Shown: positions 11,874-13,991 of the stretch, in pieces
How the letters are laid out: each line of letters begins with the position of its first letter
Position numbering within the stretch: the first letter of the stretch is position 1
Assembly (NCBI GenBank): GCA_003140235.1
Contig: PLJN01000144.1
Span: forward strand, 1-46,307
Direction of reading: 5' to 3'
DNA: 46,307 nt
From: Acidobacteriaceae bacterium
Lineage (GTDB): Bacteria; Acidobacteriota; Terriglobia; Terriglobales; Acidobacteriaceae
The notes under the pieces: model-generated
What the model was told of the DNA's origin: nothing
Databases searched by the model: none
Seen by the model: only the letters and a program-made list of their open reading frames with translations
Made by a program: the position numbers and the translations under genes

Positions 11874-12731
11874 ATGAAACGAGCAGCCATCATCTCGAAA
11901 CGCGGGAAGCCGGAACTGGGAAGAATTGCCAGTGAGGTCATCAGTTGGTTGAGCGATCATGGCTACTCCGTCCTTGCGGATTCGGTTACCTGTGAACTCT
12001 GCAGCGGATGCGAACTGGCGGAACGCGAACACCTGATCGAGAAAAAGCCGGATTTTGTGATCGTTCTGGGTGGCGATGGCACATTGCTTTCCACGGCGCG
12101 AAGCGTGGCGCAGGCCGGCATCCCAATTTTGGGAATCAACCTGGGATCGCTGGGCTTTCTCACCGAGGTCCGGCAGGACGAAATCAGCCGCGCCCTCACG
12201 GAAATTGACAGCGGCCAATGTGCCCTCAGCCTGCGCTCCATGGTGCACTGCCAGGTGCGGCGTGGCGATGAGTTCTTGAGTCATCATGACGCGCTCAACG
12301 ACATCGTTGTGCACCAGAGCGAACTGGCCCGGGTCACAGATTTTGACGTACTCGTTGACGGCGCCTTTGTGGCCAATTACAAAGCGGACGGCATCATCAT
12401 CGCCACGCCTACCGGCTCGACCGCGTATTCACTCGCGGCGGGCGGACCTGTGCTGTCCCCTGATCTGCCCGGTTTCGTCATCACTCCCGTGGCGCCGCAT
12501 GCACTCACGAACCGTCCCTTGGTGGTCCCAGACAGCGCCAGGATTGAAGTGAAGATGAAGGACAACCGCGAACATGCTCTGCTTACCATCGATGGCCAGC
12601 AAGGAGTGACGCTGGCGGAAGGCGACATTGTCCAATGCAGCAAGTCAGATTTGAAGGTAAAGCTGTTTAACTTGGCGAACAGGTCGTTTTTTGATGTCTT
12701 GCGGACTAAATTGAAGTGGGGCGAGAGGTAA
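11874..12731 (+). CDS. nadK: NAD kinase
   Basis: A 285-residue ATP-dependent NAD kinase making NADP in the cytosol. The GGDG catalytic motif is at residues 66-69 (VLGGDGTLLSTAR), followed by ILGINLGSLGFLTE. The HDALNDIVVHQ segment corresponds to the substrate-binding NE/ND motif and TPTGSTAYSLAAGGP to the conserved glycine-rich block. A C-terminal beta domain follows. The start abuts the tlyA stop with no gap. Just after the stop, GAATT-gagt-AATTC followed by TTTT (12733-12750) could be a weak terminator. Confidence 0.96.
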   Translation: MKRAAIISKRGKPELGRIASEVISWLSDHGYSVLADSVTCELCSGCELAEREHLIEKKPDFVIVLGGDGTLLSTARSVAQAGIPILGINLGSLGFLTEVRQDEISRALTEIDSGQCALSLRSMVHCQVRRGDEFLSHHDALNDIVVHQSELARVTDFDVLVDGAFVANYKADGIIIATPTGSTAYSLAAGGPVLSPDLPGFVITPVAPHALTNRPLVVPDSARIEVKMKDNREHALLTIDGQQGVTLAEGDIVQCSKSDLKVKLFNLANRSFFDVLRTKLKWGER

Positions 12732-12782
12732 GGAATTGAGTAATTCTTTTGATTGGGCAATTAAAGGGGCTACAAAGAATTA

Positions 12783-12972
12783 AGAAGCCCCGAGTTTGGT
12801 GTGTTGACCCATTCGCCTCGACCAGCAGTTCGCTATAGACCCTCGCCGACCTGCGTTCTCCATTTATTTCCTTGCGGAACTTCCTGAAGCGCGATCTTTA
12901 ATCAGCTTGGCTGAAGCTTGGGCTCCGGGCTCACCACCAACCGGGTAAATCGGTCAACACCTCGGGGCTTCT
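12783..12972 (-). ncRNA. Candidate structured RNA, copy A
   Basis: The ends of this 190-nt segment form a long perfect stem: 12783-12794 pairs with 12961-12972 (12 bp) and 12801-12809 pairs with 12952-12960 (9 bp), with only a six-base one-sided bulge. Inside, 12821-12851 is 28/31 identical to 13005-13035 of copy B, and 12920-12944 resembles 13081-13106. A small AGCG/UGCU hairpin in the core uses a G-U pair on the minus strand where the plus strand would have an A-C mismatch, so minus-strand transcription is favoured. After the closing stem the minus strand runs into UUAAUUCUUU, a possible terminator. Class unknown; length and long-hairpin shape recall 6S RNA, which is inference only. Confidence 0.55.
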
Positions 12973-12986
12973 ATTTTGCCAATGAG

Positions 12987-13122
12987 CATTTCATGTTCTT
13001 CTCAACCAGCAGTTTGCTACAGACCCTCGCTGACCCTCCTGACATTTTCAGCTTGCGCTGCTGTCAGGTGATTCTTGCTCGGGCCCCGGCACTCGCCACC
13101 AACTGGAAAAACTTTTGAAATG
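12987..13122 (-). ncRNA. Candidate structured RNA, copy B
   Basis: A 136-nt paralogue of copy A, only 14 nt from it. The closing helix pairs 13116-13122 with 12987-12993 (7 bp) and 13106-13112 with 12995-13001 (7 bp). The second helix has one G-U pair on the minus strand but an A-C mismatch on the plus strand, again pointing to the minus strand. An internal hairpin has CCTGACA and TGTCAGG arms within about 13038-13068. The core shared with copy A is 13005-13035 and 13081-13106. On the minus strand copy B precedes copy A, so both could be on one transcript or arise from separate starts. No coding potential seen. Confidence 0.55.
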
Positions 13123-13134
13123 TCAAAGAACGAG

Positions 13135-13167
13135 GTTGACTTTAATCTATCCATAATCTAAGTCAAC
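13135..13167. promoter_or_regulatory. Inverted repeat with internal direct repeats upstream of RNA copy B
   Basis: GTTGACTT (13135-13142) and AAGTCAAC (13160-13167) are perfect inverted arms. Between and overlapping them are two direct TAATCTA copies at 13143-13149 and 13154-13160. It lies 12 nt upstream (minus-strand sense) of the copy B closing stem. An operator or promoter element for the RNA pair is plausible; no well-spaced -35/-10 pair could be assigned. Confidence 0.45.
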
Positions 13168-13523
13168 ATAATTCTTATGTCTACAAACACAATGGAATCA
13201 ATCGGTTGCAGCCCTTCCACACAGGCGTGCCTTGTACAGTGTGCAACTGTTTTTGGAGTGCAATAACCACGCGGCAAGAATGCTAATTTTTCGATTTTGC
13301 GCGGTGTGTAAATTGTGACAGAAACCGCTATTTATGCGGATTTGACGAGAGCACTTAGCAGCCAGCACTCATCATTCAGCCGTCAAGACTGTGCGTGAAA
13401 CAAACCGCAAAGGACGCGAAGGACGCAAAGGGAATCAGGCAAAAACCCTTCGCGTCCATAGAATTGTGCTCGTCTTGAGCGGAAAGCTTCGGGGCTGAAT
13501 GCTGACTGCTTCCTTGCTGCTCC
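13168..13523. other. Intergenic remainder with hairpin and palindromic repeat
   Basis: No gene. A hairpin with GTTGCA (13204-13209) and TGCAAC (13242-13247) arms is followed by TGTTTTT on the plus strand, a weak terminator candidate. The stretch 13357-13510 is listed separately as an inverted repeat. Confidence 0.4.
13357..13510. repeat. Imperfect palindromic intergenic element
   Basis: Left arm from 13357 and right arm ending at 13510 are imperfect inverted copies: AGCAGCCAGCA...CATTCAGCC against GGCTGAATGCTGACTGCT, then a shared TCAAGAC word, then GGACGCGAAGG against CCTTCGCGTCC. The middle is a short AT-richer loop. The right end lies 13 bp from the stop codon of the 155-aa gene. It resembles the other intergenic palindromes of this window in type, not in exact sequence. 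Confidence 0.6.
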
Positions 13524-13991
13524 CTACGCTGCTCCGGCGCTGCCTGTCCAGTCCCCGAGCAGTTCGACTTCGCCACATGAGTCGGGCTTTTCCTGGGCTG
13601 GTTGAAATACGGTCTGGTCTTCCTGACGGAAGTACGGGCCCATCAGGCTCCAGGTTTCAAACCCGCTGCCGGAAATGGTAACCATGATGGCTTCGGTCGC
13701 GGACTCGCTTAGAGCGCCCCAGCCCGGTCCTTGCAGCCGCGCTGGGGAGCCAGGGCCGTCCAGATGAACATCGTCCACGGTCAGGATGGCGGTGGCATTC
13801 TTTTCCAGTGCAGCCTCAACAATTTCTGAATAGATGTCGTCGCGTTCGGCTTCGTTCTGGTAGGCCACGTCGAATATTAGGTTCTGTGTAGGGGTGATGA
13901 CGATGGCGGTTGGATTCAGATGGCCGTTGGCCTGCAATGACTGCTGCGCCTCATGCAGAAGCTCATGCGCTAAGGCTTTCAGGTCGGTCAT
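13524..13991 (-). CDS. Conserved-looking hypothetical protein
   Basis: A 155-residue soluble protein of unknown family. It begins MTDLKALAHELLHEAQQSL, a helical segment, followed by an alternating strand/helix pattern (TAIVITPTQNLIFDVAYQNEAERDD) and an acidic, proline-containing tail. No signal peptide, membrane segment or catalytic motif is visible. Its ATG (13989-13991, complement) overlaps the lysA stop as ATGA, so it is almost certainly translated from the lysA message. This coupling is the only clue to function. Confidence 0.75.
   Translation of the reverse strand: MTDLKALAHELLHEAQQSLQANGHLNPTAIVITPTQNLIFDVAYQNEAERDDIYSEIVEAALEKNATAILTVDDVHLDGPGSPARLQGPGWGALSESATEAIMVTISGSGFETWSLMGPYFRQEDQTVFQPAQEKPDSCGEVELLGDWTGSAGAA

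Follow-up and report, generated by a model that had tools for sequence, protein, structure and literature searches.

The predicted RNA gene beside nadK

The window, i.e. the whole stretch of 46,307 nucleotides that was analysed, belongs to a 4.9-Mb draft genome that is 89% complete. According to the list of open reading frames, 792 bases (12732-13523) separate nadK, a plus-strand gene identified by Pfam that ends at 12731, from a minus-strand frame of 155 amino acids (13524-13991), which lies upstream of the RNA described below and is without any Pfam match. Inside this gap the list contains short frames only, e.g. 12918-13118. A repetitive AAGGACGCGAAGGACGCAAAGG stretch was seen at 13405-13430, in the part of the gap upstream of the RNA.

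The original prediction had placed in this gap two segments with a common core, a second similar block, and a separate closing helix for each segment. All of these were found again: the two copies of the core (12821-12851 and 13005-13035) differ at three of 31 positions, each time by a transition, and the second block and both helices are present as described. Judged by models, folds and covariation, positions 12783-13122 are most of a predicted structured-RNA gene on the minus strand with two long hairpins, the upstream module U and the downstream module D (Table 1). The covariance-model matches extend over 12983-13123 for U (116.8 bits) and 12799-12961 for D (122.7 bits). The closing helix of D is predicted to double as the stem of a terminator.

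Table 1. Features of the predicted RNA gene (window coordinates; CM, covariance model)
Feature	Position	Strand	Basis or remark
Module U (upstream hairpin), including the closing helix starting GTTCTTTGACA	12987-13131	-	CM, fold, covariation
Module D (downstream hairpin)	12783-12972	-	CM, fold (z -5.8), covariation
U core, 5' strand	13077-13112	-	Conserved alignment columns; coordinates placed by hand
U core, 3' strand	12993-13035	-	Conserved alignment columns; coordinates placed by hand
D core, 5' strand	12916-12949	-	Conserved alignment columns; coordinates placed by hand
D core, 3' strand	12808-12854	-	Conserved alignment columns; coordinates placed by hand
Linker separating the modules, assumed to be unpaired; homologues read GGCARRATAGA or similar	12973-12986	-	
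Predicted sigma70-type promoter: TTGACT, 16-base spacer, TAAAGT	13139-13166	-	Start expected near 13132
Conserved block preceding the promoter (TGTGGA-N5-TGCA... GATTGA...), possible regulator site	13175-13221	-	
Predicted intrinsic terminator, formed by the closing helix of D (3' arm) and a T-rich stretch	12774-12794	-	

Most of the loci used for comparison were the top scorers of the respective searches. In all 42 loci of the promoter count, from which L019 was left out because its upstream sequence is too short, U is preceded by a TTGAC box and, 15-18 bases on, by a hexamer starting with TA. This test was passed by 14 of 7,428 60-mers that were taken from these loci as controls. Forty of the 42 loci have a 16-base spacer and 6-7 bases before GTTCTT; the second box is mostly TAAAAC or TAAAAA, a poor match to TATAAT. 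At the other end, at least seven T occur in the 14 bases after the closing arm of D in 42 of 43 loci, compared to 270 of 11,011 14-mers taken at random and 13 of 683 flank stretches with a similar anchor. In the window's genome the T run of the terminator is interrupted.

Upstream of the promoter, a block is conserved in f1, the window's own family, where it reads TGTGGA-N5-TGCA followed by GATTGAAAA. Combined with TTGAC, this pattern was matched 20 times across 37 genomes. Twelve matches directly precede the RNA; the remaining eight are about as many as the seven of a reversed control. Many RNA loci deviate from the exact pattern, and it was found in none of the 14 searched genomes of f2, a second family of the same order. 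The block at 13175-13221, like its homologues, has a TGTGGA(C) box with TGCAC repeats on either side; we take this box to resemble a high-GC DnaA box.

The predicted product is one RNA of about 358 nt that would start near 13132 and end near 12775. Because of the placement of the promoter-like and terminator-like sequences, one RNA with both modules is likelier than two. Within flanks of about 1.5 kb, no flanking gene is shared by more than six of 43 loci when frames of at least 70 amino acids, read from stop to stop, are clustered; two larger clusters, with 21 and 12 of the 43 loci, are mostly made up of frames that run across the RNA itself. A lysA-like decarboxylase gene (Pfam) seems to be kept upstream in a few close relatives. 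With covariation (see below), promoter- and terminator-like sequences and no conserved downstream gene, the element has, as far as its sequence tells, the features of a stand-alone structured non-coding RNA.

Folding, covariation and the conserved core

On the minus strand, D folds with -87.7 kcal/mol (z -5.8 versus dinucleotide shuffles) and U (12987-13122) with -51.7 kcal/mol (z -4.1). The plus-strand folds are weaker, with z values of -3.5 for D and -1.6 for U. All 36 homologous modules reach a lower energy in RNA sense than as their reverse complements, the smallest margin being 1.7 kcal/mol (L018_D), and the consensus energies in RNA sense and in reverse are -73 versus -40 for U and -132 versus -118 for D. 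Moreover, two U-G pairs are kept in all 41 aligned D sequences; the minus-strand sense is favoured because the opposite strand would have A-C mismatches in their place. Shuffle scores, homologue folds and conserved U-G pairs thus agree with the minus-strand RNA structure that had been proposed.

For a first alignment, 36 of 40 f1 modules were used (A1), both modules of L004 and L006 being omitted. Left out beforehand were L031, L033 and L034, which are the same as L005, L004 and L002 by their match figures, as well as L007_U, L012_U, L015_U, L017_U and both modules of L024, after which the 40 modules remained. Separate alignments hold 37 of 43 U modules (A4) and 41 of 43 D modules (A5); L016 and L023 were excluded from these U and D counts.

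Covarying pairs in homologues, on which the original prediction had staked its case beforehand, were found in both modules. Of the 61 pairs of D, 28 changed on both sides (177 such cells), and 94.4% of the cells are paired. For U, 22 of 52 pairs changed on both sides (129 such cells) and 91.3% of the cells are paired. None of 500 shuffles reached any of five covariation measures, neither for D nor for U; these figures are to be read with the caveat that these very alignments also served to predict the structure and that kinship among the sequences inflates the counts. When the partner column was slid by 1-3 columns, pairing fell to 34-46% (D) and 39-53% (U). Double changes occur in eight of the 12 pairs of the D closing helix; in the outermost helix of U they affect two of eight pairs, and five more show one-sided changes. 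The covariation seen in these alignments is strong enough to define a predicted RNA family, and we regard it as virtually certain that the element belongs to a real family of structured RNAs.

In both alignments the columns of the core are constant while the stems vary. This nearly invariant core consists of CCGGUUGG / CUGGYCGAG, GGAGCCC or GGGGCUC / GGGUCU, and RA/RA internal loops. The consensus structures contain small internal loops only and, by eye, most conserved unpaired letters are located in the short internal loops. GNRA-type tetraloop motifs occur in the tip region, apex position not implied, of 32 of 37 U and 39 of 41 D sequences.

Distribution and module architecture

A DNA search matched 30 of 61 genomes, 24 of which, all from f1, hold modules. 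The six weak ones (G002, G010, G024, G028, G040, G056; E 0.0035-0.095) contain no modules and were rejected; in their loci (L025-L030), one of which (L025) looks coding, a covariance model gave one match only (14 bits, L026). This model, R1, represents 36 f1 modules and was built without f2. It matched 30 of the 61 genomes, namely the same 24 from f1, four from f2, and two weak ones (G024 and G059, E 0.033 and 0.044) that were discounted. On f2, R1 scores range from 19.6 to 36 bits, with up to four matches in one locus. Because R1 was built without f2, these matches are independent, which does not hold for the f2 scores of a second model, R2, that includes f2. The credible carriers found by R1 are 24 of 37 f1 genomes and four of 14 f2 genomes. 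The RNA is patchy, and its function is therefore dispensable or replaceable.

Applying R2 to the order, 92 of 248 genomes (90 from f1, two from f2) in 41 of 63 genera were matched. Five weak matches (G071, G097, G188, G211, G267; E 9e-4 to 6e-3) were not trusted and were removed, leaving 87 of 248, a number that still includes the doubtful G233 (28.5 bits). Among 247 genomes of the phylum nine were matched, six of them from f1 (G071 weakly). The loci L104, L105 and L106 (19.7-22.5 bits) of the three others have no module fold and look like coding sequence by eye; they were rejected. As far as searched, the family appears to be restricted to a single order of the class Terriglobia, and there to f1 and f2.

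In the window's own genome, the DNA search found one locus and the covariance models match these two modules only. The dispersed DNA repeat of many copies, named in the original prediction as the finding that would speak against it, is therefore excluded. Several f1 genomes have two loci. Comparing nine named nadK loci, the RNA lies 1.9-2.9 kb from nadK in three, which stem from 'Candidatus Angelobacter', Terriglobia and Acidobacteriaceae assemblies (71, 67 and 65% nadK identity). The NCBI taxonomy lists Angelobacter in the class Terriglobia without an order; we take its order to be Terriglobales.

In 43 of 45 f1 loci there is exactly one U followed by one D; the matched ends are 20-26 nt apart, corresponding to coordinate differences of 21-27. 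The two others are L023, which starts at a contig end, and L016 (G029), in which D is accompanied by a U match of 473 nt versus the usual 136 nt or so. The U tip of L016 folds into about 12 small hairpins, and a U with a multi-hairpin tip is also present in L137 (G244). In L135 of the single-contig 5.7-Mb genome G102 there are three matches, which are read as D plus two halves of an enlarged U; a single fold showed no clean U rod. Counted by eye, the arrays of short hairpins that replace the U tip comprise about 12 (L016), nine (L137) and four (L135) members. Several of these hairpins carry C-GGCA-G, C-GGCG-G or GNRA-like loops. The array hairpins may be binding sites of their own.

Two f2 loci, L079 (G041) and L076 (G043), contain five matches in a row each, within about 770 nt. 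The weakest of the five score 23.1 and 14.9 bits with R2 and are meaningless on their own. L077 and L078, likewise from f2, are cut by contig ends. The matches of L076 and L079 are closed by palindromic GC-rich clamps, such as GGGGTTCAGTGAATCCC between the modules, and the first hairpin of this five-module RNA looks unlike the rest.

Known RNAs and possible modes of action

A comparison with Rfam had been suggested at the outset. No Rfam family reaches its threshold anywhere in the window. At E 10, a search across 12732-13523 left the element without match and returned a sole hit in the flank, SNORA70 (20.1 bits, cut-off 40), which is attributed to chance. Five homologous loci gave two sub-threshold hits only, STnc430 (27.3, cut-off 47) and MIR8622 (28.4, cut-off 197; overlapping part of the f2 RNA in L079), and these are attributed to chance, too. 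Because there is no Rfam relative and the modular build is unusual, the element very probably represents a new family of RNAs.

Soils are rich in acidobacteria, and a structured RNA can lack an Rfam entry even though about 87 of the 248 searched genomes of one order carry it. Its nearly invariant core probably contacts something, and the number of modules differs between families; consensus, models and predicted ends offer a handle for finding the partner.

No description of such an RNA was found in the available parts of the open-access literature, and a term search in the accessible portion of a 2024 survey of 50 genomes gave no match. On acidobacterial non-coding RNAs, the same literature yielded little beyond riboswitches and two Acido motifs. 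The latter, Acido-1 (RF01686) and Acido-Lenti-1 (RF01687), are given in PMC2864571 as acidobacterial candidates for non-coding RNAs, as the element is, and are marked as not cis-regulatory; neither model matches the element at E 10. The same paper describes the pan motif, which lies upstream of pantothenate genes and for which its authors suggest dimeric protein binding, and the STAXI motif, which is mainly a pseudoknot. Both resemble the element in having modules repeated in tandem, but they differ from it in the pantothenate-gene position and the pseudoknot fold, respectively, and have no Rfam match to it.

In our estimate, the chances are evenly balanced that the element is a stand-alone trans-acting structured RNA which offers repeated core binding sites to a conserved partner. 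The comparison supports one predicted transcription unit with promoter-like and terminator-like sequences of its own and two hairpin rods, each with the same nearly invariant two-strand core; relatives show either five core modules or a U tip with hairpin arrays. Repeated binding sites are proposed because the repeated, nearly invariant cores lie in long rods, the transcript is apparently independent, and no neighbour is conserved. The cores would serve one conserved partner, probably a protein, and because they are repeated, the RNA would hold several copies of this partner and act as a titrating decoy or as a scaffold. Tentatively, and with doubt slightly prevailing, we suggest a new class of modular rod RNAs in one acidobacterial order, with two or five invariant cores and sometimes a crown of hairpins, that would bind several copies of a conserved partner, as a decoy or assembly scaffold for which no counterpart is known.

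The element might instead be a base-pairing sRNA dependent on Hfq. Its mRNA targets would then pair with the linker GGCARRATAGA or with an internal loop, and the rods would merely keep the RNA stable. Such a role is conceivable given the conserved linker and the Hfq found in 59 of 61 genomes, and the T-rich end would suit it. However, the very frequency of Hfq makes its presence uninformative. Moreover, the most conserved letters lie inside the rods and not in open seeds, and five-module relatives are ill-suited to a simple seed RNA. Since the conserved unpaired positions are mostly found in short internal loops, the element is better suited to partner binding than to a role as antisense seed; we consider the base-pairing sRNA unlikely.

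It is similarly unlikely that the modules build an assembly instead of titrating a protein, i.e. that the element is a structural or catalytic RNA such as a particle scaffold or a ribozyme. The invariant internal loops, the GNRA-type motifs of the tip regions and the existence of very large versions would fit such an RNA, but no Rfam family matches at threshold.

The original prediction had noted a resemblance to 6S RNA, which binds RNA polymerase and templates product RNAs. A promoter mimic of this kind would share with the element the comparable unit size, the long imperfect hairpin and the stand-alone bacterial gene. In contrast to the single rod of 6S RNA with its large open central bubble, however, the element has tandem modules and small internal loops only. 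RF00013 is silent at E<=10 in 12732-13523, a 6S RNA of the genome's own is encoded on another contig (C95:998-1182, 68.4 bits), and R1 is silent in five 6S loci. The resemblance is not supported, and a 6S-like function is very improbable.

No more credible is a cis-acting element (riboswitch, attenuator or 3' UTR), linked for example to nadK, which adjoins the RNA in the window and is near it in the three of nine named nadK loci mentioned above. A parallel would be the NAD+-I (nadA) riboswitch, which according to PMC10702441 has two tandem similar stem-loops and is known from acidobacteria. That riboswitch precedes nadA in cis, whereas the element has neither an Rfam match nor a conserved downstream gene; nadK lies convergently on the opposite strand, the frames around the element vary from locus to locus, and the element has its own promoter-like and terminator-like sequences. 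An element acting as DNA (cruciform, protein-binding repeat or mobile element end) is practically negligible, in spite of the tandem inverted repeats and the second locus of several genomes, given the one locus in the own genome, the strand-specific retention of G-U pairs (two D pairs are U-G in all 41 sequences) and the lack of any matching plasmid or phage record, by which a plasmid or phage origin was rejected as well.

For the mode preferred here, repeated sites for a partner, known parallels exist. CsrB/RsmY-type sponge RNAs carry repeated protein-binding sites on one trans-acting RNA, as is proposed for the element, whose conserved sites are, in contrast, two-strand cores in long rods. 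A Csr/Rsm sponge was rejected with CsrA in none of the 51 f1 and f2 genomes and in three of 61 overall, and a ProQ client with ProQ in none of the 61. A bacterial Y RNA was rejected, too: Ro/TROVE occurs in ten of 61 genomes and does not track the RNA, being present in two of the 21 credible carriers outside the window's genus, and two of the ten TROVE genomes (G002, G031) are without the RNA. Seven of the ten genomes with TROVE (Ro-like) matches, which are weak but above the cut-off, belong to the window's genus; one of the matches lies at G000:C170:7616-7882.
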